Assembly (NCBI GenBank): GCA_015179125.1
Contig: WHVA01000101.1
Location: 186,001 to 250,000, forward strand
Direction of reading: 5' to 3'
Origin: Gautieria morchelliformis
Lineage: Eukaryota; Basidiomycota; Agaricomycetes; Gomphales; Gomphaceae
DNA length: 64,000 nucleotides
Shown here in pieces: positions 4,123 through 44,374 of this stretch. Made by a program: the position numbers and the translations under genes. The notes under the pieces were generated by a model, which did not search any database, was not told the origin of the DNA, and was given only the letters and a program-made list of their open reading frames with translations. How positions within the stretch are numbered: position 1 is the stretch's first letter; each line of letters starts with the position of its first letter.

Positions 4123-4138
4123 AGTCTATGTTGTATCA

Positions 4139-4694
4139 TGGCTGCGCACCCCTATCCAACCCTGACTCGTGACGGCCTCTTTCCTATTCGCTGATACCTT
4201 ACGAGTATTCGATATAAGTAGTTTACATTCGCATGTATATTACCCAGTTCAATTATCATACGTTGTGCATCTTGTGCAAACTTGACCTCACTGTGATCAT
4301 CGTCTTAAGCCTTCTCTTGAAGATTTCTATCTTCGACCAGCAAAGGACTTAGGCATCACTGGTGAGTTCTCATACTTCATCTTCGTTACCTTAGCCTTCC
4401 AACCATTTTCTGTGCTGTTGGCGAAGGGCTCAGAAGGAGCACCTTTGCCAGCGAAGGGATTGTCGAGACTTAGACAGCCCTTCCGTGAGACCTTGCACGT
4501 TACATCATCAAGAACCACGGGCTATTTCGCTACGACTGTAGATAGGGCGAGCCCCGTTTAGGCAAACCCTCTTACCTTGTGAACATTCATTGGTTCACCT
4601 ATTCGCCGAACGGCATACTTATTCGCACAAGTTATTCGGGCATTCGCTGTGTTCACTAATACACGATATTAACGCTTGAAAACCAATCTTGACA
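4139..4694 (+). repeat. A 5' LTR (556 bp)
   Basis: Starts TGGCTGCGCACCCC and ends TCTTGACA. It matches 11008-12056 with a few substitutions (for example cttacgagt against cgtacgagc), so the LTRs have diverged slightly since insertion. Both LTRs are preceded by TATCA, so the true start could be five bases earlier. No typical tRNA primer-binding site is recognisable after it. Confidence 0.85.
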
Positions 4695-8695: not shown

Positions 8696-10110
8696 CTACT
8701 TCGTTAATTTTTTGATCATCGCCTGGACCCCCTCTAGTTCTAATACCTCTCCGCTCAAATCATTGAGCTTTCGGGACACACTCCTCATCAACTCCTCCGA
8801 CCTCTCCACCAGATCCTCCAACCTCTCCTCGCCGGCCAGCGTAGACGTTCGGGTGTCTTCGGGGGTATCTGAGAATCAGCCGAAGATATTCGGGAAGAGG
8901 ATTCAACAGGCTTACCAAGGATGCCCTTCGACGAAATCGAGGACGAAGCCGTCGCCAATCCCTTATCCTTTCCTTTCCCCTTACTCTTCCCTTTCGACCC
9001 TCGCTCTTTTACTGCTGGCTCTCGACCATCCTTCTCGTCCTTCGCCACATACTCTAGGAGAGGGATAAGGACTCCACATGAGTTCGAACGGTGTAGGAGG
9101 AATGAGAAAATTGGAAGCTTACCCTCTGCTGCAACACAACCCTGGCGATCACGAATGCATCGCCCACACATCTTTCCGGCATCGCCGCTGCAGGTATGCC
9201 CGTAGCGAAGGCATCGCCCACACTTCACAGGCCTCTTCAATATGCCGAGCTACGAAGAAAGTCACAGTCAGCGGGCGAAGGGCATCATCAAAACATGTGC
9301 CGCTTACCCCTTTATAAATCAGCCACCCGAGCAAATACGCCTCCTTGGGATAGCCATGCTTCACCACCGATTGCGGGACCTTGTCCGATTCCGCAACTAG
9401 GGCATTCGCCCGACCCTTGCGACGATGAGCAGGAGTTGGCTCAACTGCGACGACCTCTGGCGTAGGGCTCCGAGTGCGTTCTTTGCGAGGCTTCTTCGGC
9501 GTCGGAGCCTCGTCGCCTTCGTCCTCGGATGACAGAAACATCGGTCGACGCTTCGTGCCCACAGATGGGCCTGTAGCTGAGAGTCGGAGCGATTTGGATG
9601 ATGCAGTGATTGGCTCAACAACAGGAGCCGAACCTTCGACAGGGCTCAGAATTAGACTCGCTAGTGAACGAGAATGTATCACGTACTTTCAGCTTCCTTC
9701 GCAGCATCCCCTATTACCTCGGGTTCCTTCGATGGGCCTCGCGACGCTGTCGGGCCTTGCACCGCGTTCATCTCGGCATCGAGGAACTCGGGGCTAAGCA
9801 GGAAACCCGCGCCCCTGAGCCACTCCTTCGCTTCCTTCACCTCCCTCATGAGGTCGTCCACATCTGACGGACGTTCGAAATCGGGATCCACAATCGCCTC
9901 GACACGCAACGTGGTCCTCAGTTCGGCCTACAACAGACTGTTCAGCGAAAATACCCAATAAAAGAACTCTCTTACCTGTAGTTCTTCAGCCGCGACGACC
10001 CATTCCTCCATATCTTTGCGCAAGTCTCTCCGAAATTCAGGGCAAACCTTCAACTTAACCCGCGTTCGCTCGATGAGCACAGCAAGAGAGAGAGACTTGT
10101 TATCGGCCAT
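8696..10110 (-). CDS. Antisense gene of A: Zn2Cys6 cluster protein, six exons
   Basis: Runs against the retrotransposon transcript. Proposed exons (plus coordinates, read right to left): 10110-9976, 9927-9687, 9633-9308, 9249-9123, 9053-8916, 8868-8696. Introns 9928-9975 (48 nt), 9250-9307 (58), 9054-9122 (69) and 8869-8915 (47) all have GTAAG donors and TAG or CAG acceptors and keep frame. The intron from 9686 is certain at its donor (GTACGT) but its acceptor could be at 9634 (AAG) or 9577 (TCTCAG). Product about 360-379 residues: helical N-terminus (MADNKSLSLAVLIERTRVK), basic KKPRKER, Zn cluster C-x2-C-x6-C-x7-C-x2-C-x6-C at 9136-9222 (about residues 244-272), Lys-rich tract, C-terminal coiled coil ending IKKLTK. 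The Zn2Cys6 spacing is that of fungal GAL4-type regulators; DNA binding is inferred. Confidence 0.75.
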
Positions 10111-10156
10111 GGGAAATCGAGTGGTGAAACGAACCCGTCGTCTCACACCGCAATGC

Positions 10157-10164
10157 CTTTTATA
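10157..10164 (-). promoter_or_regulatory. TATA box of the antisense gene of A
   Basis: Minus-strand TATAAAAG in the context GGGCTATAAAAGGC, 47-54 nt upstream of the ATG at 10110. This spacing fits a core promoter with a short 5' UTR, and it supports MADNKSL as the start rather than the upstream in-frame codons, which would overlap the TATA box. Confidence 0.6.
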
Positions 10165-10185
10165 GCCCAGGGCTGAGCCGTGCAC

Positions 10186-11007
10186 AGACCAGGCGGCAAG
10201 AGATCATATCGGGGGCACTATTACGTCCTCGGACTCGTCCCCCGTCCTAAGGCACTACGTCGTTGGACTCCGAAGCTAGGAGGGGGGTGCTGTCATGATG
10301 CGTTTATTTCTCATATTCAGGTGCTCTGTCCTACCATTTGTCACTCCATCTCCGTGTTCGTTCCGATCGCCATTTTCATGTTCGGCAACCAATTCTCGCT
10401 GTTTGCAACAATGACCATGGTTATGCCATCAACAAGCGATCGACGTCTTCGGACTAACTTAGCAGTCATTGTTGGGCCTATCACCTCCTCTGCTCGGCCC
10501 TCTTCCGATGGTGTTCTGCCAATCGGATTGTCATGACCTATGTATTTCCTGCACCTTGCTACCCCCATCCCCTCGTTCGCTACTCCTCCTCCGTGTTCGC
10601 TCGGCTTCACCCCTCCCTTTGGCCACGCTCCTCTATGTTCTCTCCGTTCACCCTTCGCCGCATTTCGCCGAACCGCTATTCGCTGCTCGCACATTTTGCC
10701 AACAATGCATGCCATCAAATACGATCGATACCATTTACCCGGCGTGATGATTCATCACTAACCCCATCATCTTCTTAAATACAACCCCTTTGGGTTTTCG
10801 TATGGCCAAAGTATGTTTGCGGAGTGTTCCTTCCGTAGGTCGTGTGGGATCGACCCAGTGGACGAAGAGTCCGTGCAGGGTGACATGTATGCGGGTCCCA
10901 AGACATGGTTTTGTACATAAGTACCTTCGCCACCTTTACTCTCCGTCATTTCATGTTCGCACCCCTCCCTCACTCTATTGTATGTTTATTCCATCTCCTT
11001 AGTATCA
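10186..11007. other. Non-coding region between antisense gene and 3' LTR of A
   Basis: About 820 bp, pyrimidine-rich on plus, with no open frame that resembles a known protein. It holds whatever upstream control region the antisense gene has. I see no clear polypurine tract directly before the 3' LTR. Confidence 0.5.
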
Positions 11008-12056
11008 TGACTGCGCACCCCTATCCAACCCTGACTCGTGACGGCCTCTTTCCTATTCGCTGATACCGTACGAGCATTCGATATAAGTAGTTTACATTCG
11101 CATGTATATTCCCCAGTTCAATTATCATACGTCGTGCATCTTGTGCAAACTTGACCTCACTGTGATCATCGTCTTAAGCCTTCTCTTGGAGATTTCTATC
11201 TTCGACCAGCAAAGGACTTAGGCATCACTGGTGAGTTCTCATACTTCATCTTCGTTACCTTAGCCTTCGAACCATTTTCTGTGCTGTTGGTGAAGGGCTC
11301 CGAAGGAGCACCTTCGCCAGCGAAGGGATTGTCGAGACTTAGATGTTGGGTGCATTTATGCTCCTGCACCAAAATCAAGCATAATATGTTCGATTTATTG
11401 TATGGTGTTTCAATCTTTTCTCATATTGTTCTTGTACCATGCATTCATTTCCCTGATTATTTTCGAAAATTTCCAGTCACTCCCTATCTCTCCATTCCAT
11501 TTTGTTATCTCTATTTTCACAGGCGGCTGCACCCAGCGGAGTTTGAAATGACTTCGATGCGCGAGCTCTTGAGCGCTAAAGGGCCGGGTGCACGTATATG
11601 CCTTCTGAGACAGGATTGTACTCCTCTCTCAGTGACAATAAATTCACTGAGAGAGGCGAGTAGTATATTTCATATTTACATAGCATGTTGACTGAAAATC
11701 ATGTAGTGTATTTGATTCTAGGTATTGTATTAATATAACAGTGACTATAAATTCACTGAGAGAGTGTATTTGATTCTAGCTTTCTAAGAACTCTACCGAA
11801 CCTTCCCTGCCATAGCCCCTAGTTGCTAACATTAGACAGCCCTTCCGGGAGACCTTGCATGTTACATCGTCAAGAGCCACGGGCTATTTCGCTACGACTG
11901 TAGATAGGGCAAGCCCCGTTTAGGCAAACCCTCTTACCTTGTGAACATTCATTGGTTCACCTATTCGCCGAACGGCATACTTATTCGCACAAGTTATTCA
12001 GGCATTCGCTGTGTTCACTAATACACGATATTAACGCTTGAAAACCAATCTTGACA
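11008..12056 (+). repeat. A 3' LTR, interrupted by a solo E LTR
   Basis: Starts TGACTGCGCACCCC and ends TCTTGACA at 12056. Removing 11344-11831 plus one copy of the 5-bp duplication leaves 556 bp, the same length as the 5' LTR. The nested insertion shows that A was already in place when the E family was active. Confidence 0.9.
11344..11831 (+). repeat. Solo LTR of copia family E (488 bp)
   Basis: TGTTGGGTGC...GTTGCTAACA, flanked by the 5-bp duplication TTAGA (11339-11343 and 11832-11836). It contains the family hairpin CCTCTCTCAGTGA / TCACTGAGAGAGG (11623-11656), followed by a partial duplication of the region carrying TGTATTTGATTCTAG twice. The intact duplication means the internal part was lost by recombination between the two LTRs. 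Confidence 0.95.
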
Positions 12057-13405
12057 CCTGGTCCGGTATGCCCTGGCCTTCTGTTGGGGCCATGGATTGT
12101 TCACGCGACTGTGACGCCACGCAGGGCAGGCTGTTATATGCCCTGACGGGCCCCAGGCCCTGGGCCTGGATCGGGCTTGGGATCGGGAGCATTTTGTGCA
12201 CTTGAGTCCGGGGGCGTCTTGTGCCTGGTGTCCCCAGTCAGTCCTGCATTGCGGATCCGCAGCCTGCTGTTGTAGGCTGCGCGTGCTTGTCATGCATCCT
12301 GCACGGCTCGTGTGAGCTGTTCGTCAGGCTGCTGGGCGACGTGGCTTTGGGCCACTGCTTCCTCAATGTTCTTCGCCAGCAGCTCGAGGGCCCGCGTATG
12401 GCGGCGTGCGGCTGTGGCCTCTTTACGCTACCAGTGCTTGACTTTGAGCTCTAAGCTCTCAGTTGTGGTCTCAGAGTCAGGCTCTGAGGCGACTTGTTTT
12501 CTAACGATCTGCTGGATCGTCTTGCGGCTGTCCGTTGGGGCAGCCGGTGTCTCCTGGGGTTCATTTCTGAACTGCACATCCTGTTCAAGTGGGACGGCTG
12601 GCAGCGGCATTTGCTGCCTGTCCAGTTCCTTTTGTCACAGGTCTTCCGCGTCATGACCGCGTTCCTTAGCTGCGGACTGTTGCGAGCTTTGACGTGGTGT
12701 GTCGCGTTCCCCATGTGGGCGGAGGGCCATTTGGATGTTCTCCAGCGTGGCCGTGTCTTGCAGCCTGATCTCCTCAGCTTGGTGGAGCTCCTTGCCGATC
12801 TCTATGATGGTGGCGGCAATGTTGTCAAGCTGTGAGGCTAGCTGATCGTGCTTGTGGCATGTGAGGGTGCTCCGGTGCAGCGCATCCTGCACCTGCTTGT
12901 TCAGTGCCTCTGCCGTGTCGTTGTCGATTGCGTGAGTTCTTGAGCTCTTGCGACTTGAGCTCGAGTATTCCGAGCCCTGACCGTCGTCTGTGGCTCGCCT
13001 TTTTTGCCTTCGTCCTCCTTCAGGGACAATCGTCGTCACTCTACTTCGTGAGTGGCGGTTCGAGTTGTGGCTTTGTGCCCGTCTTGGTGTTGATGCTCTG
13101 CCGTCTGATGATGGCGAGACCCCTCTGCCTTTTCCCTTGTCTCTGGGCAGAGGGGATTGGGGGGGTGGCACTGGCTTGTCGCCTGGCGATGCCTCGTCCT
13201 CGACCATGCTCGGTGAGACATGGTTGGGGCTCTCCTCGTCCTCTATTGGGGGGACGAGGGCGGTGAGATCTACGATCTCTCCATCTTCTGGTGTCCTGGA
13301 CTCTTGGTCCAGGGTAGCATCAGCCGTCGTGTCACTGGGCTGCACCTGTGGCGTGGACTGCGAGCTCGACGCTCGTGTCCATCTTCGACTGCGTGGAATC
13401 ATCAT
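12057..13405 (-). pseudogene. D1 gag, N-terminal part
   Basis: Begins MMIPRSRR at 13405. It has an acidic/Ser-Pro-rich stretch (EDGEIVDLTALV), a basic segment (GRRQKRRATDD) and a helical region (EALNKQVQDAL...) as far as 12635, after which the frame breaks. Fragments continue in other frames to the junction with A at 12057, equivalent to about 46530 in D3. The capsid core, zinc knuckle and protease are missing from this copy. Confidence 0.75.
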
Positions 13406-13543
13406 GCTCGCAGCCGACAGTAGAGGGTCTACTGGAGGGTATCAACGATGTTTAGTCGTTGACGCAGTGATCTTTTTCAAGATTGCTTCGAATCCACAAT
13501 CGGTTGGTCACGTGGCGATCAACCACAGGATAGTTCAAAAAGG

Positions 13544-13757
13544 TGTAAAGATATCAATCTTAAGACCTTGTATCACAAGGGCACAACAGAACTTGACCAA
13601 TGAGTGGTATTCTGAATGCTATGAAGTGACAGGTAAGAGTAAGATGCGATGGGAACTGCTGACTGGTTCCCACGCATAAACTATACAGTGGGTCACTAAG
13701 GGGCCCACTGGGATTATGTAATAACTAGTGTACATGTAGATACATAGGTTATTTACA
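13544..13757 (-). repeat. D1 5' LTR (214 bp)
   Basis: On minus, TGTAAATAACC...GATATCTTTACA, matching the D3 LTR at 44366-44578 (213 bp). It sits directly against the truncated chromodomain of D2 (…EFQIRWT), so D1 inserted there. The five target bases would be ACTCT; the partner copy is outside the window. Confidence 0.8.
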
Positions 13758-16700
13758 AGAGTCCACCTGATTTGGAACTCTAGGTCCTTCGAGTTTATCC
13801 ATCGGTGGGATAAGATCTCGTCGACTAGCCACTCTTCCTCGTCATTCGATCCAAAGTCATAAAATGACTTTGCTTCCTGACAAGGGAATAGATCATCGTT
13901 ATTTGCTTCATACCGTCGTATGAGGTTGGTATGAAACGTCGGCGCAATGCGTCGGTTTTCAATTCCTCCAGTAATTTGAGGGTTACCATCGAGGTGTTAT
14001 TGTGGGCTTCCTTCACACGATATGGCCCAATATATTGTGGTACTAGCTTGCTGGCCCTTCCTTTCGGCAGGGTCAGGTTTTGGGTTGACAGATATACGCG
14101 GTCTCCCACTGCATATATGTCCCCTTCATGACGTTTCTTATTTGCGTGAAATGTCTGCATCATGCAATGCTCTATGATTGCATTGTGTGCTGCCATCAGG
14201 TTCCATCGAGCCTGATGTGCGAATCACATCACTCCCTTGAAGGGAGTGTCCATAGCCATTGGTAGGTTGATCCGTGGCATATATCCATGGTTCAGCTCGA
14301 AGGGTGCGAACCCTGTTGTTGAGCTGACATTGCTGTTTAAGGCAACTTTGACCATTGGGCACTTTTTGGCCCAGTCCTTTTGATTGTCCTTGATGACTGA
14401 TCGAAGGACCTGGCCTATCGAACAGTTTGCCCATTCAGTTGCCCCATCCGTTTGAGGATGGAATGTGGTGGACATGAGGAGTTTTGTCCCCATGAGCTGT
14501 TGAAGTTCACGCCAGAATATGGATGTGAATTTTGAGTCTCGATCCGAGACTATGGAGTCTGGGACCCCATGAAGTCTTATGACCTCTTTTAGGAATAGCC
14601 AGGCTATTCCTTTGGCCGTCACACTCATTGTTGTCGGGACGAGATGTACGTGAGACGTGAGTCGATCTATGATTACCATGAGGTAATCACAGTCATTCGA
14701 TTTGGGCAGTGGGCCCATCAAATCTATACCGATAGATTGCCATGGTCTATCGGGTATGGGCAGGCTATGCAATAGTCCTGCGGGCCGCTGCATGCCTGTC
14801 TTGGTGGTCTGACACTTCGTGCATGAAGTGCATAATGCCTCGATATCTGAGGCCATACTGGGCCACCAGTATGTTCTCCAAATGTAGTTCGAAGTTTTCA
14901 GTTGACCGTAGTGGCCAATTGTCTGGTGGGCATGATTGATTATAATCTTGATCAGCCTCCTTCCCCCTTGAAACACATTCCGAGGGATGGCTATGACATA
15001 CCTCTTGAGCTGATTCTTTGTCCAAACCAGCCCATCCCAGATGCCGAACCTTGGGTGCGCATCCGGGTTCTCCATGATCTTCATGAACATGGGCTCCCTA
15101 TGGTAGGAGTCACATAGGACCTTTGGCAGGTCCATGTTCTCTTCTACGCTTACATGTAGGGAGGTTCCATTATTGCTTGCCGCAATGATGCAGATGTTGT
15201 TGTCATCGTTGTCTGTCAATGACGCGCTGTGGCGAGGTTCCTTGGCAGAGCCTTCGTTCATGACCATTGCTTCTATTGTTCGCGGTTCAGTCTTCTCTGC
15301 GAGGCACGTCAATTGCCTCGTAGCTTCTGCACGCAGTTCCATGTATCGGTTGGTGGGCATTAGCTCACCGTCCGGGTCTAGTCATGTGTCTGCGTTGACA
15401 AAGATGTGGTCCGGGTGATTGTCATCACCCATGTCGCTTTCATAGTAGTGGGATAAACAGTCCACTACTTTGTTCTCAACACCATCAATGTGGACGGTGT
15501 TGTACTTGAAGTGGGATAGGAACTCCCACCACCAGACCTGTCTGTCTGACAGGTTCTTCTGGGTCTTGAAGTACTCGAGACCCTTGTGGTCCATGACTAG
15601 GGTGAATTTTTGCCCTAGGAGTCTGTCCTCCCATTTCATGAGGGCTTCAAGCACGGCGATGGTTTTGTGCTCGTGTGTTCTGTGTTACGACCGTGCATTT
15701 CCGACTCCCGACCTTCAGTTCCGCAACCTTTCTGCCCCTCCGATAATTCCGACATTCCGCCCCTTGTTCTACTCCCTTGTTCTTTCGACTCTATTACTCG
15801 GACACTCCGGACGCGCTTCACCGTTCATCAAGATCATATATCCGGTCACTCTTGTAGTTCGTTGTCAGATATGATTTCCGACCCCTTGTTCTTTGTCATT
15901 GTTTTACCTTACCCTGAACCCCCCCTGTAGTCCCATTGTTCCCAATTAGTTAGTTCCCACGAATGTCTACCCGACTTCCACTCCCCCCGGAATTTGCTTA
16001 GTACCATCTCATTACCTGTTGTCTCAGCTCTTTGTATAAAAGCCTCTCATGTATGTCTGCTATTCTGCAATCAGATAATCACCTTCGGTACTTGACTTCC
16101 TTTGCTCCATCTCCTGTTCTTAGCACAGCGAGTCTAGCAATACCTCCATCTCTCTGCCTTCCGCCTTCCGCCCTCCGCCCTCCGCCTTCCGCCTTCCGCC
16201 TTCCGCCTTCTGCCTTCCGCCTTCTGCCTTCCGCCTTCCGCCTTCCGCCTTCCGCCTTCCACCTTCCGCCTTCCGCCTTCCACCTTCCGCCTTCCACCTC
16301 AGTTCCGACTCAAGTCTTTGACAAGAAGCCAGCTGGTCGACAGGCTCTCCAATCTGGTCCCTGGCCATATACAGCTCCGACATCAGACTTTGAACTGTCA
16401 GTGATGACCCATATCGGGTCCGCATTCCATGCGTCGATTGGACGCAGGATCGGGGCCTTGCAGGCCAGTGCCCTTATGCTTTGGGAGCATTTGTCCAGCA
16501 ACAGCGTTCATTCAAAGGGACAGTTGTTGCACACACATCCCGATGAGGGGGTGGTGTATGTGCTGACATCTGGCATGTAGTGTGCCAGGTATTGGACAAG
16601 GCCGATGAACCTCTGTACGTCATTAAATGTACGGGGCCTCCTCCACTTGCAGATGCATTGCATTTTATCACCATCCGCGTGAACTCCTTGGCCATCTATG

Positions 16701-17540
16701 ATATGGCCAAGGCACTCCATTTGTTCCGAATAGAGGTCAACCTTCTTTTTGCTTAAGAAGAGATGACTGCTCTGTAGTCTGTTGAAGACTATGCGAAGAT
16801 GTTCCTCGTGCTCTTGTATCGAGTGTGAGAAGATGAATATATCGTCCATGTATACATGGACAAAGCAACCTATGCAGTCGTGGAATATTGACGTCATGAG
16901 ACATTGAAACGTCGATAGGGCATTGCAATCCCCCATCTGTATCACCTGGCTCCTAAATGTGCCAAGGATTGTTGCAAAGGCTGTCTTTGGGACGTCTTCA
17001 GGACGAATACGGATTTGCTCGTATGCCTCTGACATATTGAGTTTCATCCTGGATTTGCAGCAAGCGACATTGCTCCTGATAACATCCTGATCTGGGAAGG
17101 GCGTCACATCCTTCACTGTGTTCTCATTTTGCTGTCGCAGATCGAAGACGGTACGTGGCGTACCGTTTTTCTTCGGTACACACAGCATTGGCACTGCTTG
17201 ATGGGCCACTGCTGGTATCCACCACTTCGCAGTGGTGTATCATTCTAACTTCATGGACAATTCCTCATGGAAGTGTTCAGGGCACTTGGGTAGTTGATAC
17301 CGCATGTGTTTGTCGGGATCAATGAGATTGATCTCGTGATTCACCTCCTGTAAGGGAGGGAGTTCTAATGGGATACCGCCAACAAGGTCGGCGATCTTGT
17401 CCATCGATTCCTTGTGCAAGCGAGGGATGTCATCGTCCGTGAGGACAATGGTTGTAGTCTGGGCAGCCATCAAGCGCCATGTGCATCTGTTTGGACCCCC
17501 GGCACCCGGTGGCTTTTTCCTTTTTTCTAGCGCTTTCATT
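13758..17540 (-). pseudogene. D2 pol: RT, RNase H, integrase, partial chromodomain
   Basis: RT (16508-17209) with VPKKNG, DLRQ and the intact catalytic YMDD (about 16850). RNase H straddles the LTR fragment 15683-16314. Integrase HHCC (about 14790-14930) and DDE core (IDLMGPLPKSND, IDRLT, SDRDSKFTS; 14400-14720) follow, then a truncated chromodomain cut by D1 at 13757. In-frame stops occur near 17240 (Arg CGA of D3 replaced by TGA) and near 16506 (Trp replaced by TGA). The frame joins gag-protease through the TGA at 17615-17617. Confidence 0.8.
15683..16314 (+). repeat. Truncated LTR of family B inside D2
   Basis: Starts TGTTACGACCGTGCATTTCC like the B LTR and keeps its TATAAAA (about 16034) and the block TGCAATCAGATAATCACCTT. 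It is about 150 bp short at the 3' end, stopping at the motif TCAGTTCCGACTCAAG. About 30 bp of D2 are missing at the right junction. From about 16150 to 16300 a 7-bp repeat CCGCCTT has expanded. Confidence 0.8.
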
Positions 17541-17607
17541 GTGAGATGACAGCATCTCTCCCTGCAAGTGTAGGGAGAGGTTGAGGACGAGTTGCAAGAC
17601 GCACCCT

Positions 17608-17627
17608 CCTGGCTTCAATTGGCCAGG
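17608..17627 (-). promoter_or_regulatory. D2 gag-pol stop codon (TGA) inside a hairpin
   Basis: On minus, CCTGGC and GCCAGG pair around a loop containing the TGA (17615-17617) that ends gag-protease. The same frame stays open into pol. A second stem begins 6 nt beyond the stop (GAGGGTG pairing with CGTCCTC, two G-U wobbles). D3 has the same arrangement at 48317-48364. Inferred to be a readthrough signal. Confidence 0.55.
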
Positions 17628-19334
17628 GTGGGCATGGGCCCCAAGGTGATTCTACTCACCTTTGGATCTGCACCTCTCTTCAATGACTTTTTGTCATCGA
17701 AGCTTACTTTTCCTGTGGGGATGGTTTCATTCCCCACACGGATTGTCCCTGGACTGGCAAAGTCCAGCGTCACTCCTAGTTTCCTTAGGAATGGAGTTCC
17801 CAAGATAGCATTGTAATACTCGACATTCGCCACATCAAAGTATTCTTCAACTGTTTCATGACCAAATTTAATGGTTGTGTTTGTCCCGTAGTTGATCATT
17901 GATTGACTACCGATGCACGCCAATTGCAGGGCAATTGGCTGTTCCAAGGCAAATGTTTTAATGCCAGTGGCACAGGTGAATTCGGGGGATAGTAATACCC
18001 CTTCACTCCCACTGTCTAGTAGACAGTGGGCCTTCATGCCATTGATCTCCCAGTACCCCGACAGGGTACGGTTCTTGCTATGTGGCCATGCAGGCTATGT
18101 GTGGTGTTTGCTCCGATGATGATACATTGGTTCGGCTGCCTTGTCTGGGGCCGTTGTTCGAGCAGCCATGACTTTGGCTGTCTCATCTACCAGTGTGATT
18201 CTAATCGTGCTGGATCTGTAGGCAGTCTGAGTGTCTGCCATGTCCTCATCCCAATCATAGTATTGGGATGGCTCTGGCTCCCAAGCCTCTGATGGCTCGC
18301 CACTCCCCTCCTGATCCTCAGTTTCCTGAGGGTCACCCTCCCCCTCTTCAATCTCTTGAAGAGAGGTGTCGATGGATCCTCTGGATCCCCATTGTCATCC
18401 TTCCGTATGGCCACTGTCTGTACTTTCAGCTTCAGGCATGGGCAATTCACCTTAATGTGACCTGTCTGGCCGCATTCAAAGCAGCTTGCACTGCTATGGG
18501 TGTTTTGTGGCCTGTCTGGGGGGCGGCCAGATGTTTTTGCGGGTAGCTCGGCTTCGCCGAGCTTCCTGATGCCTGAGGCGGACAACCTGTTTGCAGTGAC
18601 TTTGTTGCCAAGGGTCAGCGGAAGGCATTGTTTGCCTGGAATGCAGAGGGCTTGTTAAAGCCTGACTGTGTGGCCGGCTTGCTTGTTGCAAGCCATGACG
18701 TGATGGCCGTTGTGGTCGCGGTTTCAGCCCAGTGCATCCCTTGGTTGTACCGGGATGCTTCCTCGATCATCTGGGCAGCTTCAAAGAGCTGCTCGATCAA
18801 GCTGCACTCAGCGTTGTAGCCTTTCTTCAGGACTTCATTGTGCAATGTATCGCGCAATGCTGAAACAAACCATCTTCGGAGCATGTATTAATCAGGCAGC
18901 TGTATCATCCACGCCGAGTATTTTGTGAGCTCGTTCAGCATTTCCTGAACGGTTTTTGTGCCTTGCACTACTGTGTCGAATAAATTCGACACGTGGTGAT
19001 ATGTGAGGGTGTGCATGAATCTCTTCTGCAACCCTTGCATAGCCATTTCCAAGGTCCATTCATGGACCTGATGATTGAAATGTTCAATGTTTCAAATGAA
19101 CTACTCTTGGGCCTCGCAGGTTAGGTGAGTGCCCAGGTAATCTACCTGCATCTGCACGGTGGTTGGCCCTAGTAGGCAGTTTTAGATTAAAATGTTAATT
19201 AGTGCCTTTTTATCAAATGAAATACTGATGAATGAGGGTCACGTGACCGTGTCGTCAGAAGAACAGTGTCGATCCAAGGGATAGTCAAATCAAAAGCGTT
19301 CGCTTTTAAGGTAGTATAGAGTAAACAGTGATAG

Positions 19335-20015
19335 TGTTACGACCGTTCATTTCCGACTTCCGACCCTCAGTTCCGCCACTCCTTCCGCCCCTCCAATAGT
19401 TCCGCACAACGTTCCGCCCTCCGACATTTCCGACATTCCGCCCCTTGTACATTTCCCTTGTTCTTTCGACTCTATTACTCGGACCCACCGGACCCACCTC
19501 GCCATCCATCAAAACCATATATCCGGTCACCCTTGTAGTTCGTTGTCAGATATGTTTTCCCGACCCCTTGTTCTTTGCCATTGTTCTACCTTACCCTGAA
19601 CCCCCCTTGTAGTCCCATTGTTCCCAATTAGTTAGTTCCCACACATTGTACTCGACTTCCGCTTCCTCCGGAATTTGTTTAGTACAACACCATTACTTGT
19701 TGCTCTGCGCTTTGTATAAAAACCCCCTCATGTATGTCTGTTATTCTGCAATCAGATAATCACCTTCGATACTTGATTTCCTTCGCTCCATCTCCTGTTC
19801 TTAGCACAGCGAGTCTAGCAAGATCTCAGTCTCTCCGTCTTCCGCTTTCCGCCTCAGTTCCGCCTCAAGTTCCGACCAAACCTTTGGCTCAGTACTTTCC
19901 AACTTCGGACTCATTTCCGAAATACCTAGGACGATAGTTCATTGGGGGCGCAACCTATAAGTTGAAGCCGCTGTCCTTTCCAGTTCCGACTTAGTGGAAA
20001 TCTCGATACGTAACA
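19335..20015 (+). repeat. B1 5' LTR (681 bp)
   Basis: TGTTACGACC...GATACGTAACA. A TATAAAA at 19715-19721 is a plausible core promoter for the genomic transcript. It differs from the 3' LTR by one base in a short GGACCCACC repeat; I noticed no other difference. Confidence 0.95.
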
Positions 20016-20048
20016 GTATTATCTGATTCCCACCCGATAACTATCACT

Positions 20049-21438
20049 ATGCCTCCTCGTACCACAGCTACTTCAGCTCGAGCAGGAGCTGTCGAAGCTC
20101 TCTCTTATTTTGGCAGTCTTAGATCCGCAGCACCAAGGCACGCGGAACCCTCCAGCAGCTCTCGTGCCGACGATGAGCTTTCCGATGCTTTTCCGCAACG
20201 ATTCGAAGAAGTTCCCGACGCTAATCCCGACGAAAATCCCGACTACGACGGGAATTCAACGAGTAGCAGCGGCGAACAAACAGCAGCGTCATTCCGACGC
20301 CCAGCCCACCACCACCACCTCCACCAGGACCACCTCCAGGCGGCCCTCATGGCGGTCCTCCACCTCCAATTCCACCTCAGATTCCCGCCAACCCAGTTCC
20401 GCCCGCGCCAGTTCCGGATCTTGCACAAGCCATCGCCATGCTAGCCGGACAACTCCAGCGCCCGGCCCAAGCACCACCACGCCCCAAGACAAAGGTCCGC
20501 GAACCAGATCAGTTCGACGGTTCTGACCCCAAGAAGCTCCAGCCATTTCTGGTTCAGCTTCAACTCAATTTCCGTGATTGTCCCGACGCCTTTCCCGACG
20601 ACGAACGAAAGGTCAATTATGCCCTTTCCTATCTCCGAGGCACGGCGCTCGACTATTTCGAACCCGCCCTCATGGATCCGTTCGCTCTCGTCGACTGGGC
20701 CGACGATTACCCCAATTTCATTTCCGAACTCCGCAGCAACTTCGGACCATTTGATATGGAAGCCGATGCGGAAAACGAACTCGATAAGCTTCGCATGAAA
20801 GACACTCATAAGATAGCTAAATATATCGTCACGTTTCAGCAGCTCGCTCCTCGAGTCCAATGGGGAGAAGCCGCACTCCGACGCCAGTTTTACATGGGCT
20901 TGCCATCCCGCATCAAGGATGAAATTGCCCGCGTCGGAAAACCCGCCACCCTTACCGACCTCCGCAACCTCGCCCAATCCATCGATTCGCGCTACTGGGA
21001 AAGACACTCCGAGATTGCTCGTGAAACTTCCGCCCAGAGCAAGAACGACAAGTCTTCCGACAAGAAGTCTGATAAAGACAAGAAGAAGACCAATTCCGGA
21101 AACACCAACTCCGGAAACAACAACAACAACAGTTCCGGATCCAACTCCGGCAACCGGAACAACAACAACACCCCTCGGAACAACCAGGCCTCTGGTTCTA
21201 ACACCAACGCCCGGAAGAGCACCCCGGATCTTTCCGACAAACTTGGGAAGACGGAAAACTAACCCCTGTAGAACGCCAGCGTCGCATGGACAACAACCTT
21301 TGCCTCTTCTGCGGCAAAGGAGGTCACGTCGCTCGCGACTGCACTTGCGCTTCCGCCTCCGCTGCTAAGGCCAAGGGCCGCGCAGCAAAGACGGAAGAGA
21401 AATCCGAAGCGGTTCCCGCTGCGGATTCAAAAAAATAG
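20049..21438 (+). pseudogene. B1 Gag (capsid, zinc knuckle), two frameshifts
   Basis: Starts MPPRTTATSARAG. An acidic/Ser-rich N-terminus and a poly-Pro/Gly linker precede the retrotransposon Gag domain (20480-21000; YALSYLRG, RYWERH), an Asn/Ser-rich tract (about 21080-21180) and the knuckle C-x2-C-x4-H-x4-C (CLFCGKGGHVARDC, about 21300-21345). The frame changes near 20283, and again near 21250 where B1 reads GGGAAGACGG against GGGAAGGACGG in B2. With the B2 base the frame runs through the knuckle to TAG 21436-21438. Confidence 0.85.
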
Positions 21439-21475
21439 TCAGCAGTCCTCCGGCCTCCGCACGAGCTGAGGGCTG
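21429..21475 (+). promoter_or_regulatory. -1 ribosomal frameshift signal between gag and pol of B1
   Basis: Seven A residues (21429-21435) in the gag phase A AAA AAA, immediately followed by the gag stop TAG (21436-21438). Seven nucleotides downstream of the heptamer an 8-bp stem can form: CAGTCCTC (21443-21450) with GAGGGCTG (21468-21475). Slipping back one base puts ribosomes in a frame open from ATA GTC AGC directly into the protease (LVDSGSTH). Heptamer, stop and stem are conserved in B2. Confidence 0.7.
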
Positions 21476-24400
21476 TGTTGACCCCATTCGTGCGACAAAC
21501 GAGGTTAAACTCAACGCATCCGCTCTTTCGTCCTCCGACTCTCTCTCTGTTCCGCTCACTTCCGACACCATTTCCGCACCCCCGTTTACAGCATTGGTCG
21601 ACTCCGGTTCGACTCATTGTTTCCTCGATTCCGACTTTGTTTTGAAACATAAACTTCCGACCCGCAACATTCCGACTATTCCGCTCCACCTTTTCGACGG
21701 GTCTTCCAACACGGGAATTTCCCAAGTTGTGGATCTGTCTATCCGTTTCGCTACTGGGGACAACCATGAAGTTACGTTTTACGTTACTCCGCTAGATGCT
21801 AGCTGTTCCGTTGTACTAGGACACAATTGGCTCACCCGATATAATCCGTCGATTAACTGGGCATTGGGTCAAATACAGTTCCGTACCCCGGATCAACTTC
21901 CGTCTATTCCGACGTCTTCTGCAAAGATGGCTCAGGCCTCTTCTGCAACTCCGCTCGTGGATTCAGTTCCGCACTCCGGTCCCGCTTTAGCACCTCCGCC
22001 CCTCGAAGCCCCTCGAATTGCGCTCGTTTCCGCCACCGCTTTCCGCGTATTGCAACGGCAAGATGATACGACCGTCTTCCAGCTTCACCTCTCCGATTCG
22101 GCTTCAGTCAAGGCTCGTTCCGCCTCAACTTCCGCTCCGGTCGACATGAGCTCAGTTCCGGAAGAATATCGTGACTTCCCGGACGTGTTCAATAAGACCA
22201 AAGCCGACAAACCTGCTGAACATCGACCTTACGACTTGAAGATAGATTTGGAAGAAGGAGCATCTCCGCCCCTTGGACCGATCTACTCTCTTTCGCAAAG
22301 TGAACTCCTAACTCTCCGAGAGTTCGTCGATGAACATCTCAACATGGGCTTTATCCGCCCTTCGCTGTCTCCGCACGGCGCTCCGGTCCTCTTCGTCAAG
22401 AAGAAGGATGGATCTCTCCGCCTCTGCGTCGATTTCCGCGGACTCAATGCCCTCACTAAAAAGGACAAATATCCGCTTCCGCGCATTTCCGACTTACTCG
22501 ACACTCCCCGCAGGGCGAAGATCTACACCAAAATTGACCTCCGGCACGCTTATCACCTTGTCCGCATCCGGGAAGGTGACAAGTGGAAAACCACCTTCCG
22601 CACCCGCTACGGTGCCTTTGAGTGGACTGTCATGCCTTTTGGTCTAACCAACGCTCCCGCCGCTTTTCAGCGATTCATGAACGACGTATTTTCCGACCTC
22701 CTCGACGTATGCGTTCTAGTCTACATTGACGACATCCTCATCTATTCTGACACACCGGGAAAAACATCGGGAACATGTCCGCGAAGTACTCCGCCGCCTA
22801 CGCAAACACCATCTCTACGCAAAAGCAGAGAAATGCGAATGGCATCGCGACACGGTCGAATACCTCGGCTACATCCTCTCTCCAACAGGTCTTACCATGG
22901 CAGAGGACAAGGTCAAGGCAATTCAAGAATGGCCGGAACCCCGACGTGTTAAGGATGTACAGTCTTTCCTTGGCTTCGCCAACTTTTACCGGCGTTTCAT
23001 TTATAATTTTTCCGACATTACTGTTCCGCTCACGCGTCTCACCAGGAAGGGTGCCCCATGGAATTTCACACCGGAATGCCGTTCCGCATTTGAAGCTCTC
23101 AAATCGGCCTTCACCACGGCTCCCATACTCGGTTTCTGGATTCCTGATGCCCAACTTGTACTCGAAACCGACGCTTCTGACTACGCGCTAGCCGCCATTC
23201 TTTCCATCATTTCACCCGACGACGGAGAAATTCATCCGATCGCCTTTCATTCCCGCACCTTTTCCGCCCCGGAACTCAACTACGACGTCCACGATAAGGA
23301 ACTACTTGCGATTTTCGAAGCCTTCAAAATCTGGAGACATTACCTCGAAGGTCCAACTTATCCGATCGACGTTGTAACGGATCATAAGAACCTTGAGTAT
23401 TTTGCAACCACTAAGATTTTGACTCGCCGTCAAGTCCGCTGGTCTGAATACCTCTCACAGTTCAACATGGTGATCCGTTTCCGCCCCGGAAAGCTCGGAG
23501 CAAAACCCGACGCGCTCACTAGACGTTGGGACGTCTACCCAAAAGAGGGAAGTAGCGACTATGCCAGGGTTAATCCGCACAATTTCCGCCCAGTATTCTC
23601 CACTGAGCAACTGGCATCGTCCCTGCGTGCCACAGCATTGCAGTTTCCGCTACTCCGCGCCTCAATTATTATGGACACCGAGTCTCTCCATTCCGACATC
23701 CGTTCCGCACTCCGTTCCGACCCCACCTCCGAAACCCACCTCGATGACCCCACCAGTCCTGGATGGTCCCTCGATTCCAACGGATTTCTCCGGTACAAGT
23801 CCCGGATTTACGTTCCGGACACCAACGATCTACGACTTCGCGTGCTCCAGCAAAGCCACGATCATCCGCTCTCAGGACACCAAGGCCAGAACAAGACCCT
23901 CGACATAATCCGACGTACCTATACTTGGCCTCTCCTCCGCACGATGGTCCAAGACTACTGCAAGTCATGCACCACCTGTATGCGAGCCAAGCCTCAACGT
24001 CACAAACCCTACGGCCTCCTGAAGCAACTTCCGATCCCGGAACAACCGTGGAATTCAATATCCATGGATTTCATTGAGAAACTTCCTAAGTCATCTGGCT
24101 ATGATACCATTCTAGTGATCGTTGACCGCCTCACAAAGCAGTCCATCTTTATTCCGACCTACGACACCATAACTTCCGCCCAACTCGCACAGCTCTTTGT
24201 GCTCCACGTCTTTTCCAAGCACGGAATACCTTCCCATGTCACTTCCGACCGTGGATCCGAATTTGTGTCCTCCTTTTTCCGCACACTCGGCAAGGCTCTC
24301 GACATGAAACTCCACTTCACCTCCGGTTATCACCCCGAAGGAGACGGACAGACGGAACGTACTAATCAGACCCTTGAGCAGTATCTCCGCGTCTATTGCA

Positions 24401-25143
24401 ACTACCAACATAGCAATTGGTCCGACCTTCTTCCACTCGCGGAATTTGCCTACAACAATGCGCCTTCCGCTACCACCGGAATTTCACCCTTTTACGCCAA
24501 CAAGGGCTACCACCCGAATCTCGCCATCCACCCTGAACGCGACCTCGCCTCTGCAAGAGCCCGAGATTTCGTTGTGGAACTTGACGACCTTCACCAGCAC
24601 CTCCGAGAGAACATTACAGCTGCCCAGAAGAGATACCAAACTTCCGCCGATCGGAAACGCCTTCCGCAACCGGCATTCGAGATAGGCGACAAAGCCTTTG
24701 TCAAAGCGGAAAACTTCCGCACCACTCGCCCCTCGAAGAAGCTCTCTGAGAAATACCTCGGTCCTTACGAGATCATCGCTAAGGCCGGCAGTCGTTCTTT
24801 CACCCTCAGACTTCCTGACAATATGCGCGCAGTACATCCGGTATTCCATGTCTCTATGCTTGAGCCAGCAGTTCCGAATACAATTCCGAATCGAGAACAA
24901 CCTCCGCCTCCGCCAGTCGTCATCGACGGAGAACCGGAATATGAGATTTCGGAAATTCTCAACTCCAAGCTCGACAGAAGATACCGCTGCCAACTCCAGT
25001 ACCTAGTCAAGTGGGCAGGCTATGAAAACACTGACGAAGAGACTTCGTGGATTTCCGCCACGGAACTTGACCACGCCTCTGACCTCGTCTCTGATTTCCA
25101 CAAGTCATATCCTGACAAGCCTGGCCCCATTTCCGCGCCCTAG
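21439..25143 (+). pseudogene. B1 Pol: protease, RT, RNase H, integrase, chromodomain
   Basis: Aspartic protease [10 protein letters not shown] (about 21594), RT (22270-22750; [18 protein letters not shown] and the YIDD box near 22730), RNase H (about 23090-23520; ETDASDYA), integrase HHCC (23860-23990; HPLSGHQG...CKSCTTC), DDE core (SMDFIEKLPKS, SDRGSEF, NQTLEQYLR; 24050-24400) and a C-terminal chromodomain (24960-25100; QYLVKWAGYE, ETSWISA). One extra A near 22757-22761 (five A, four in B2) breaks the frame right after the catalytic box. Otherwise the protein is open. Expressed by frameshift from gag. Confidence 0.95.
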
Positions 25144-25328
25144 TCATTTCCGACCTCATTTCCACCTCATTTCCGACCTCATTTCCGACCTCATTTCCGA
25201 CCTCATTTCCGACCTCATTTCCGACACCATTGCTTTCACAGTTCTCAGGACATTTATCAAAAACCGATTAATCTTCCGATATCCTATTTTCCGACACTTC
25301 AAGAAATTATCTACAGGTTTTTCGACAT
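25144..25328 (+). repeat. 12-bp tandem repeat and spacer after pol of B1
   Basis: About six copies of CTCATTTCCGAC at 25144-25232, then AT-rich spacer up to the end of the antisense gene. It probably holds the 3' ends of two convergent transcripts. Confidence 0.75.
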
Positions 25329-26564
25329 CTACTCCTCCCTCATGGTCTCCGCCTCGACCTCCCTTTCCGCTTCCGGATCCTTCTCCGACCCTCCTACCTC
25401 GACGATCGCCAACTCCGTGTCTACCCGTTCCCTCGTTTCCGCCCCGTTCTCCTCCTGCACCTGCGGTTCCATCCTTTCCCGGACCATCTCGTTCCGCCAC
25501 CGGTACTCGCGCTTGAACTGCTCCAGGACCGCCGACATGACGGTCATCTGGTTCTGGAACGACAGCAACTGCTGTTCCTGAACCACCGCCATATCCGTCA
25601 GCAGTTTCCGGATCCCGCGTTGGGTTTTCCGGATCCCCCTCAGCGACTCCGCGATGTCTAGCAGCGGAGATGCCATGCTGAAGCGGTTCAGCACCGCTGT
25701 CTCCGATGTTCCGGTCACCGGAAACCCTTCCACCTTCTTCCCGCTTGGTCCCGGTTTTGACTTGGGGGTTTCAGGCCCCTCGGTCTCAACCCTGCGCCGT
25801 TTCCGCTCCACCCTCGCGGCACACCCATCCACCACGCAACGGCACTTCTTGTCCCGGCACCGTTCGCAGGCCGTCTCCCGCGGATTTTCCGACCACACGC
25901 ACTCCAGGCCCTTGACCTCGCACGTATCGCAAGGAGCCTTCTCCTCCTCACCGTCCCTGGTCTTCCTTTTCCGGGTCGCAGGATTTTCCGGCCCCAGCTC
26001 TCGCAACTCCAGTATCCGAGCCAGCTTCTCTTTCCGAGCCTGCTGGAACTCGTCCGCCCTCCGTTTCCGCTCCTCAACTACGTTCGGCATGGGAGCACTC
26101 TCTTTTTGCTTCCCCTTGCCCTCTGGAGTCGGCGTGCTTTCCGCTTCCGACTCCCCTCGGAATCGGCAACTCTCTGGCAGTTCTCTGTGAGCACCGGAAC
26201 CTCCCCACGACATTTCCGACTCACCCGGAACCTCCCCACGACATTTCCGACTCACCCGGAACTTCCCTGCCTTTTCCGCCACGGCCTTTTCTTCCGCAGC
26301 CTTTTCGGCCGCATCCCGTTTCCGTTGTTCTTCACGGGCGCGCGACTCCTCCTCGCGACGCTTACGGTCACGCTCCTCCTTCTCCTTCCGTTCCTGCTCC
26401 CGATGCTCTAGTTCCTTGCGCTCCTCCTCCAGCCGCTCCCTCTCTTTCCGCGCGGCTTCCTCGGCCTCGCGCTTCTCGGCCAGTTCCTTCTGCGCAAGAA
26501 TATCAGCAAAGTGCTGCTTCATCTCGGCACTGGACATTTTAGAGAAATCGACTGAAGAGCTCAT
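25329..26564 (-). CDS. Antisense gene of B1: coiled-coil Zn2Cys6 protein (411 residues)
   Basis: One uninterrupted frame opposite to gag-pol, between pol and the 3' LTR. Start MSSSVDFSKMSS at 26564. Residues about 25-100 are an almost pure Glu/Lys/Arg coiled coil. At residues 212-243 (C1 at 25929-25931) lies C-x2-C-x6-C-x10-C-x2-C-x6-C, the exact Zn2Cys6 spacing, followed by basic RKRRRVE. The C-terminal third is a second helical region (LLDIAESLRGIRKTQRG). Architecture and position match the spliced gene of A, though overall sequence is distant. Family knowledge: such clusters bind DNA in fungal transcription factors. A role in self-regulation or targeting is inference. Confidence 0.8.
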   Translation of the reverse strand: MSSSVDFSKMSSAEMKQHFADILAQKELAEKREAEEAARKERERLEEERKELEHREQERKEKEERDRKRREEESRAREEQRKRDAAEKAAEEKAVAEKAGKFRVSRKCRGEVPGESEMSWGGSGAHRELPESCRFRGESEAESTPTPEGKGKQKESAPMPNVVEERKRRADEFQQARKEKLARILELRELGPENPATRKRKTRDGEEEKAPCDTCEVKGLECVWSENPRETACERCRDKKCRCVVDGCAARVERKRRRVETEGPETPKSKPGPSGKKVEGFPVTGTSETAVLNRFSMASPLLDIAESLRGIRKTQRGIRKLLTDMAVVQEQQLLSFQNQMTVMSAVLEQFKREYRWRNEMVRERMEPQVQEENGAETRERVDTELAIVEVGGSEKDPEAEREVEAETMREE

Positions 26565-26598
26565 GATGGAGTAAACAGAAGACGCGTCTTGTTTCCCG

Positions 26599-26608
26599 CC
26601 TATATTTC
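26599..26608 (-). promoter_or_regulatory. TATA-like box upstream of the antisense gene of B1
   Basis: Minus-strand GAAATATAGG, 35-44 nt before the ATG at 26564, so the layout resembles that of A. A CACGTG palindrome (26635-26640) lies a little further upstream and could be a bHLH site. Confidence 0.45.
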
Positions 26609-26684
26609 AAACTCCGACGCGTTTGTTCACAGGTCACGTGATTCCGACTTGTGGTCTCGCGGGCTCGACCTTAGAAGGAGATAC

Positions 26685-27364
26685 TGTTACGACCGTTCAT
26701 TTCCGACTTCCGACCCTCAGTTCCGCCACTCCTTCCGCCCCTCCAATAGTTCCGCACAACGTTCCGCCCTCCGACATTTCCGACATTCCGCCCCTTGTAC
26801 ATTTCCCTTGTTCTTTCGACTCTATTACTCGGACCCACCGGCCCACCTCGCCATCCATCAAAACCATATATCCGGTCACCCTTGTAGTTCGTTGTCAGAT
26901 ATGTTTTCCCGACCCCTTGTTCTTTGCCATTGTTCTACCTTACCCTGAACCCCCCTTGTAGTCCCATTGTTCCCAATTAGTTAGTTCCCACACATTGTAC
27001 TCGACTTCCGCTTCCTCCGGAATTTGTTTAGTACAACACCATTACTTGTTGCTCTGCGCTTTGTATAAAAACCCCCTCATGTATGTCTGTTATTCTGCAA
27101 TCAGATAATCACCTTCGATACTTGATTTCCTTCGCTCCATCTCCTGTTCTTAGCACAGCGAGTCTAGCAAGATCTCAGTCTCTCCGTCTTCCGCTTTCCG
27201 CCTCAGTTCCGCCTCAAGTTCCGACCAAACCTTTGGCTCAGTACTTTCCAACTTCGGACTCATTTCCGAAATACCTAGGACGATAGTTCATTGGGGGCGC
27301 AACCTATAAGTTGAAGCCGCTGTCCTTTCCAGTTCCGACTTAGTGGAAATCTCGATACGTAACA
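26685..27364 (+). repeat. B1 3' LTR (680 bp)
   Basis: One base shorter than the 5' LTR, apparently otherwise identical, ending GATACGTAACA before the duplicated GATAG. Confidence 0.95.
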
Positions 27365-41909: not shown

Positions 41910-42336
41910 TGTCAGGGGACACCCTGTTTTCCATTTCCAGTTCCGACACCACACCCAGTTCCGACTCCATTTCCGACTCCGCTTCCGGTTCTGATTCCAT
42001 CTCTGCCTCCGCTTTCGGAAATGATTCCGCTTCTGGGAGAACTTCCACCAGTTCTGTTCGCCTCGCCAGTTCCACTCCAATTTCCGACTTCCCCTCTCGG
42101 AACAGTGTTGGAAATCAAGCGACTCGCGTAATAGGTGGCATCAAGGCTCGATCAAGGGTCAGGGTGGTCAGGGAGATGCAGGGTTGATGGCGGGTGCCAA
42201 GTGTTGTCCCTGGCTGCGCAGCGTAGTATAATACGGGCTCGCTGACATTGGGGGTCCTTAGGCTTTTCTCTTTGGATTTCCCCTTGTCAGTTGTGTGGTA
42301 GTGTGATCTCCACAACCAGCCAGGGTTGCCCTTACA
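41910..42336 (+). repeat. F 5' LTR (427 bp)
   Basis: TGTCAGGGGACACCC...GGTTGCCCTTACA, matching the solo copy 28797-29260 but about 37 bp shorter. Confidence 0.85.
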
Positions 42337-44365: not shown

Positions 44366-44374
44366 TGTAAATAA
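42524..44374 (+). pseudogene. F gag-protease
   Basis: Starts MDPDDRLRNMEEEL. Two in-frame TGA codons (42677-42679 and near 42755) interrupt an otherwise open frame. Gag core (42840-43270; HWALSFFKLDRAA, YFRDWDAFEKTF, DYIDRFQELI), knuckle C-x2-C-x4-H-x4-C (CFRCRQPGHYACEC, near 43480) and aspartic protease LVDCGATGQFIDRDYV (near 43970). The last residues are read from the D3 LTR, so the true C-terminus and pol are lost. Confidence 0.85.

Follow-up and report, generated by a model that had tools for sequence, protein, structure and literature searches.

What does a retrotransposon gain from a gene that runs against its own gag and pol? The question is raised by a stretch of 64,000 nucleotides (nt) from the basidiomycete Gautieria morchelliformis, hereafter the window (contig WHVA01000101.1, positions 186,001 to 250,000; C14:186001-250000 in the assembly of 122 Mb and 1113 contigs that was searched for copies). 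Two different Gypsy elements in it, A and B (window copy B1), each carry a gene antisense to gag-pol that lies past the coding region and before the 3' long terminal repeat (LTR) and codes for a protein with the cysteine spacing of Zn2Cys6 clusters. This arrangement, put forward in an original prediction made from the letters of the window, was borne out by the coordinates (Table 1) and by further copies. As argued below, both genes are maintained for their proteins, which possibly recognise a short motif scattered over the whole of their own element and may help it to withstand host silencing.

Selection on both genes and their presence in other copies of A and B had been predicted as well, and served as tests set in advance; both came out positively. 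The median ratio of nonsynonymous to synonymous substitution rates (dN/dS) was 0.25 for gene A (22 sequences, 231 pairs), with 0.14 in the exon holding the cluster, and 0.21 for gene B (20 sequences, 189 pairs, median dS 0.71), with 0.13 in the core around the cluster. The A set (window, L002-L008 and L041-L054) was not picked for intactness. The B set comprised the window and the 19 loci L021-L039 (the twentieth, L040, with an unrecognised start, was left out), taken from stop-free rows, a choice biased against nonsense and not towards dN/dS values this low. Divergence in gene A was 0.23 in introns and 0.25 at third positions, and 0.12 and 0.10 at first and second positions, respectively. Shifted forward frames, used as a control, gave 1.0-1.4 in A and B. 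Two of three reverse frames reached at least 1.07 and one was lower (0.35 in A, 0.39 in B), as expected where third positions of the real frame presumably meet more degenerate positions. Both genes are under purifying selection on the protein, strongest at the cluster, and dN/dS together with the shifted-frame controls rules out an antisense RNA or a chance open reading frame (ORF).

Gene A consists of six exons separated by five GT-AG introns of 47-69 nt and yields a protein of 379 amino acids (aa), at the upper end of the predicted range of about 360-379. Its splice sites align across 22 sequences, with one GC donor among them. Six of these, the window copy included, are open from ATG to stop; the remaining ones display stops, frameshifts or, for L008, a truncation. 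TATA-like boxes stand upstream of both start codons, where they had been announced, and that of A recurs in the copies compared, except in L006, where a different ATG was taken. Protein searches were made among candidates sharing 5-residue words with the query, and the best 8000 candidates were considered for A and for full-length B. The A protein matched 50 proteins (P0001-P0050), all from G. morchelliformis, the closest at 92% identity or less. At L008 (C670), the A-type gene is cut near its end and directly adjoins a different kind of RNase H and integrase sequence.

Gene B had been read as one ORF of 411 aa, a length that probably does not stand: the gene probably has two exons, the ORF reading through an intron, and splicing of the window copy likely leaves 394 aa. 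In 28 of 32 B gene sequences (the window locus counted twice), a GTGAGT donor is followed at 48-54 nt by an in-frame CAG acceptor; among the 32 sequences, the three copies L014-L016 had no in-frame intron option. Such spacing alone proves little, because most B copies were selected for an open frame, and better evidence comes from the frameshifted copy L010, which becomes open by a GTGAGT-CAG splice of 80 nt. The putative intron stretch is the fastest-evolving part of the gene (dN/dS 0.45) and includes a 31-nt duplication in the window copy. Matches to gene B occupy at least 102 rows (from 101 of 1113 candidates), at least 38 of them spanning residues 1-411 without a stop. In a large B subgroup near L040 with nearly identical pol, antisense genes often contain stops or start at about residue 105 in one frame, which is compatible either with the intron or with decay. 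The full-length B protein matched a single Gautieria protein, over 7% of the query, and a search with its core gave 68 candidates, none at E 0.01. Relatives outside Gautieria were absent among the candidates, in searches that do not show absence elsewhere, B-type genes being seemingly unannotated.

Position and orientation were followed through the copies. An LTR lies beside the gene start at 20 of 20 B loci, and a pol end lies beside the gene stop, in opposite orientation, at 18 of the 20 plus the window, the exceptions being L030, without a pol match, and L031, where pol is inserted the other way. Seen from pol, 34 of 40 B pol ends among the matches listed have a convergent gene (27 at 88-233 bp and 7 more). 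A conserved antisense ORF between pol and 3' LTR in B is an additional-ORF arrangement of the plant Retand type. The insertion of B1 itself is recent, since its LTRs are nearly identical (they differ by one inserted base) and it is flanked by a GATAG duplication. Element A was said to have kept its gene while lacking pol, and its three main forward ORFs indeed displayed gag and no pol domain. A distant relative, L055, has gag, protease, reverse transcriptase, RNase H and integrase with an A-type gene in antisense at the pol end, its protein being 37% identical to that of A over residues 43-377. Moreover, 7 of 20 A-type gene ends lie near an integrase, at 0.9-3.2 kb and all convergent, against 36 integrase places of 151 rows. 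Given L055 and these convergent neighbours, the most plausible view is that A retained the gene and is either a derivative of L055-like elements lacking pol or their parasite.

In B, the antisense gene is an exchangeable cassette between copies. Compared with the window element, 14 copies are mostly 93-99% identical in RNase H-integrase, against 70-90%, often 70-80%, in the antisense gene of divergent copies, and the drop falls at the borders of the gene; for L040, most of pol is 95-100% identical and the gene 70-80%. Across the same 105 pairs, median synonymous divergence was 0.145 in pol and 0.70 in the antisense gene, with a correlation of 0.24. Copy L036 stands with the window copy in the pol tree (support 98/96) and in the other main group in the gene tree (100/100). 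The pol grouping is rejected by the gene data (approximately unbiased test, p-AU 3e-5) and, less strongly, the gene grouping by the pol data (p-AU 0.03), the groups having been defined after the trees were seen. Recombination between co-packaged RNAs would be an ordinary route to such cassettes.

The six cysteines of the Pfam family Zn_clus are spaced C-x2-C-x6-C-x5-12-C-x2-C-x6-8-C. Both proteins show exact Zn2Cys6 spacing, as predicted; the A and B clusters were the sole two matches in a six-frame scan of the window, and the spacing is kept in most copies examined. Basic residues beside the cluster are a further trait shared with fungal Zn2Cys6 regulators. Gal4-type proteins carry their basic run between the first cysteines, in contrast to B, where it lies between the last ones. 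Homology between A and B is not claimed: profile comparison gave a probability of 1.7%, with the six cysteines aligned and no homology detectable outside them. A search of solved structures with the proteins gave no useful match, and the TRP28 domain (PF04195) was absent from the Pfam matches of both. A third type of zinc-cluster gene, D, was encountered at L058 (C1103:216900-218000), with a cluster above the Pfam cut-off; behind this gene, in its own 1.1 kb read, comes an array with 31 copies of a 12-bp unit. Many D-like places occur in the genome, and in protein P0050 the start is D-like and the end A-like.

Function is indicated most strongly by a motif that runs across the whole element, rather than by the LTR. 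Relative to dinucleotide expectation, TTCCG is the top 5-mer of B in the LTR and leader (20 vs 2.6), RNase H-integrase (24 vs 4.2), the gap between pol and the antisense gene (8 vs 0.6) and the antisense gene (22 vs 4.1); in protease-reverse transcriptase it is second to TCCGC. This loading is partly codon-independent. Against synonymous-codon shuffles, TTCCG numbered 19 vs 6.4 in protease-reverse transcriptase, 24 vs 7.1 in RNase H-integrase and 22 vs 10.1 in the antisense gene, values reached by none of 500 shuffles each, and by 1 of 500 for gag. The excess in the antisense gene recurs in 21 of 21 B sequences, which are related (385 vs 193). Likewise, synonymous sites within TTCCG/CGGAA in B gag-pol are less variable (window copy as reference; 2.06 vs 5.55 site-equivalents, 16 of 5000 permutations), which ranks this pair third of 103 5-mer pairs in conservation, with three of the other top five overlapping it; with a majority reference the values were 28 vs 40.1 (rank 2 of 109).

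In A, the motif is TTCGC. It leads in non-coding DNA (16 vs 2.8), is the top 5-mer of the element minus its 11-bp array (40 vs 10.7) and is also the top 5-mer of L055 (27 vs 4.6; in pol 12 vs 2.2), where its coding excess beyond codon usage is modest (10 vs 4.5). In A and L055, motif and protein type go together, since both have an A-type protein and TTCGC in first place. No comparable enrichment appeared in those stretches of the window that belong to copia and family F.

Zn2Cys6 proteins bind CGG triplets. Our tentative proposal is that each antisense protein recognises the motif of its own element, most likely keeping its chromatin open or transcribed against silencing. The gene, driven by a promoter of its own on the antisense strand, would produce a nuclear Zn2Cys6-like protein with coiled-coil parts, which would bind the motif loading its element, TTCCG/CGGAA in B and TTCGC/GCGAA in A. 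Many low-affinity sites acting jointly could direct it to the DNA of its own family alone, and the bound protein might mark the element and preserve open or transcribed chromatin despite host silencing, as VANC does for VANDAL elements. Zinc binding, DNA binding, motif recognition, nuclear location and the anti-silencing effect are what we infer here from genes and motifs. The likeness to VANC would be one of working and not of descent, and we know of no zinc cluster in VANC. According to the accessible part of its description, the VANC21 motif of VANDAL21 is arrayed in one orientation and in tandem arrays, and the protein is more variable than the transposase (PMC5735166). Common to A, B and the VANC/VANDAL systems, as far as the available parts of both reports go, are a protein encoded by the element and less conserved than its enzyme, tandem arrays, and a dense motif of the element's own that mostly keeps one orientation (PMC5735166, PMC10398659). 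In contrast, VANDALs are DNA transposons, the VANC21 motif is described there as mainly non-coding whereas the motifs here occupy coding DNA too, and binding and demethylation were demonstrated there whereas A and B are known from sequence.

Several observations weigh against the proposal. A match to Zn_clus by profile search had been anticipated and did not materialise: the window B protein scored 11.1 bits against a curated cut-off of 21, weak matches below the cut-off occurred in 11 of 18 B members (best E 0.0021) and none in 17 A members, which sets both apart from fungal Zn2Cys6 regulators. No gene accompanies 6 of the 40 B pol ends among the matches listed (C1002, C315, C394, C137, C136 and C1). 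The link between motif and protein rests on two protein types. TTCGC is not clearly above codon usage in A (gag 6 vs 3.7, 40 of 500 shuffles; antisense gene 5 vs 3.4, 114 of 500), and synonymous conservation in the B antisense gene was not significant (6.28 vs 8.21, 432 of 5000; window copy as reference). The B motif is strand-biased, the sense strand holding 101 TTCCG vs 30 CGGAA, which would also suit an RNA role. Finally, family C, a different chromovirus with pol 39.5% identical to that of B, has CGGAA (14 vs 3.0) and TTCCG (14 vs 4.9) as the two 5-mers of its pol most enriched beyond codon usage, and in the one copy concerned, C482, pol runs to the LTR and leaves no room for an antisense gene. 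On inspection by eye, no family C gag was seen beside D-type or Zn_clus places in the expected arrangement. It is because family C, in this copy, has the motif without the gene that recognition of the own element is proposed here as possible rather than probable. Either the motif has another cause in family C, or the gene was lost, or the B protein is used in trans.

The main rival for the motif link is that the loading is unrelated to the antisense protein and reflects a host factor, RNA packaging or another nucleic-acid signal. Family C and the sense-strand bias of the B motif speak for this explanation, which we consider doubtful and still of appreciable weight. It fits poorly with A and its distant relative sharing a motif that differs from the one of B and C, and family C could borrow the B protein. 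Moreover, the two strands of family C pol carry the motif equally often (14 and 14), which is ill-suited to an RNA signal.

For the protein itself, the main rival is repression or copy-number control, the protein binding its own LTR or an internal region and limiting expression in the manner of HBZ. That protein, from human T-cell leukaemia virus type 1 (HTLV-1), lowers sense-strand transcription driven by the 5' LTR. Place and strand agree, both cases having a nuclear regulator (presumably nuclear in A and B) with an antisense gene near the retroelement's 3' end. HBZ differs in being a basic leucine zipper protein and not a zinc cluster, in belonging to an infectious retrovirus and in an antisense start within the 3' LTR, whereas the TATA-like boxes of A and B lie between LTR and gene. 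Cassette exchange in B would also let a newcomer evade a resident repressor, as in phage immunity regions. Repression is nevertheless unlikely, for a promoter switch would not need the motif to be loaded over the entire element, coding parts too, and there is no sign of changed specificity: in B, both cluster and motif are conserved although the remainder of the cassette is variable.

Steering of integration, by choice of target sites or binding to integrase, would agree with coiled-coil parts and with a gene adjoining that of integrase and chromodomain, but it is very improbable: B already has a chromodomain, thought to choose target sites in chromoviruses, and nothing in this analysis links the gene to target sites. 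A captured host gene or passenger without function for the element, as broken versions in many copies might suggest, is scarcely credible in view of the dN/dS values of 0.25 and 0.21 across copies and of the gene's persistence in a pol-less, non-autonomous element.

Plant Gypsy elements already provide examples of antisense genes close to the 3' LTR. Those of the Retand lineage carry antisense TRP28 genes, whose function is given as an open question in the parts of the reports available (PMC11963269, PMC7264820). According to the same parts, they share with A and B the position between pol and 3' LTR, predicted DNA binding, family-specific tandem repeats and some non-autonomous members; they differ by their domain, by being reported from flowering plants only and by a lineage that is not chromoviral, unlike B with its chromodomain, and the motif running through the whole element distinguishes the fungal A and B families. 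A literature search, outside which most subscription journals lie, brought up no report of antisense Zn2Cys6 genes in LTR elements of fungi. Since no retrotransposon figures among the fungal elements carrying TET/JBP demethylases, in the accessible part of that report (PMC12730594), the resistance of fungal retrotransposons to silencing is an open question. A broader answer, which we hold to be unlikely though not negligible, would be that fungal LTR retrotransposons run a VANC-like self-recognition: a protein from a swapped antisense cassette would coat the motif-remodelled element, which would escape silencing while hardly affecting its host; family C and similar elements would be cheats that use the protein in trans. 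If recognition of the own element is true, a retrotransposon's own DNA-binding protein would have shaped its coding sequence at the level of nucleotides. The zinc-cluster type of protein implies testable DNA targets, and because such targets can be read in vitro and the element predicts them (TTCGC for A, TTCCG for B), the function is directly testable.

Table 1. Features of elements A and B and of family C in the window (window positions; empty cells where nothing is given).
Feature	Position	Strand	Remarks
A 5' LTR	4132..4694	+	ends approximate
A gag ORF	5203..7512	+	domain search
11-bp array CTCTTCGCAGG	5397-6050		inside A gag ORF; 59.9 copies, 98% alike, A motif in each
A antisense zinc-cluster gene	8696..10110	-	ATG at 10110, stop ends at 8696; splice model and copies
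A gene exons	10110-9976, 9927-9687, 9633-9308, 9249-9123, 9053-8916, 8868-8696	-	
A cysteine cluster	9136..9222	-	C-x2-C-x6-C-x7-C-x2-C-x6-C; spacing search
A TATA-like box	10158..10164	-	about 54 nt upstream of ATG
A 3' LTR	11002..12056	+	split by insertion at about 11344-11831
B1 complete element	19335-27364	+	LTRs of 681 and 680 bp; 5-bp duplication GATAG
B1 5' LTR	19335..20015	+	preceded by GATAG
B1 gag	20438..21262	+	Retrotrans_gag, Ty3_capsid
B1 protease and reverse transcriptase	21594..22952	+	RVP_2, RVT_1
B1 RNase H, integrase, chromodomain	22726..25143	+	domain search
12-bp array TCATTTCCGACC	25144..25225	+	between pol and antisense gene; 6.9 copies, holds B motif
B antisense zinc-cluster gene	25329..26564	-	411-aa ORF
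B gene, probable exons and intron	exon 1 26564-26225, intron 26224-26174, exon 2 26173-25329	-	splicing as suggested by copies
B cysteine cluster	25836..25931	-	C-x2-C-x6-C-x10-C-x2-C-x6-C; spacing search
B TATA-like stretch	26600..26604	-	about 40 nt upstream of ATG; varies between copies
B1 3' LTR	26685..27364	+	GATAG after it
Family C gag	42857-44374		family C stretch 41955-44374, further loci L056 and L057

Two further features were recorded in the window. The insertion in the 3' LTR of A (11344-11831) is a solo LTR of a copia-like family with the duplication TTAGA. A (TTCCGCC)n array of about 20 copies (16153-16306) lies just behind a B-related LTR (15649-16111, about 70% identical).

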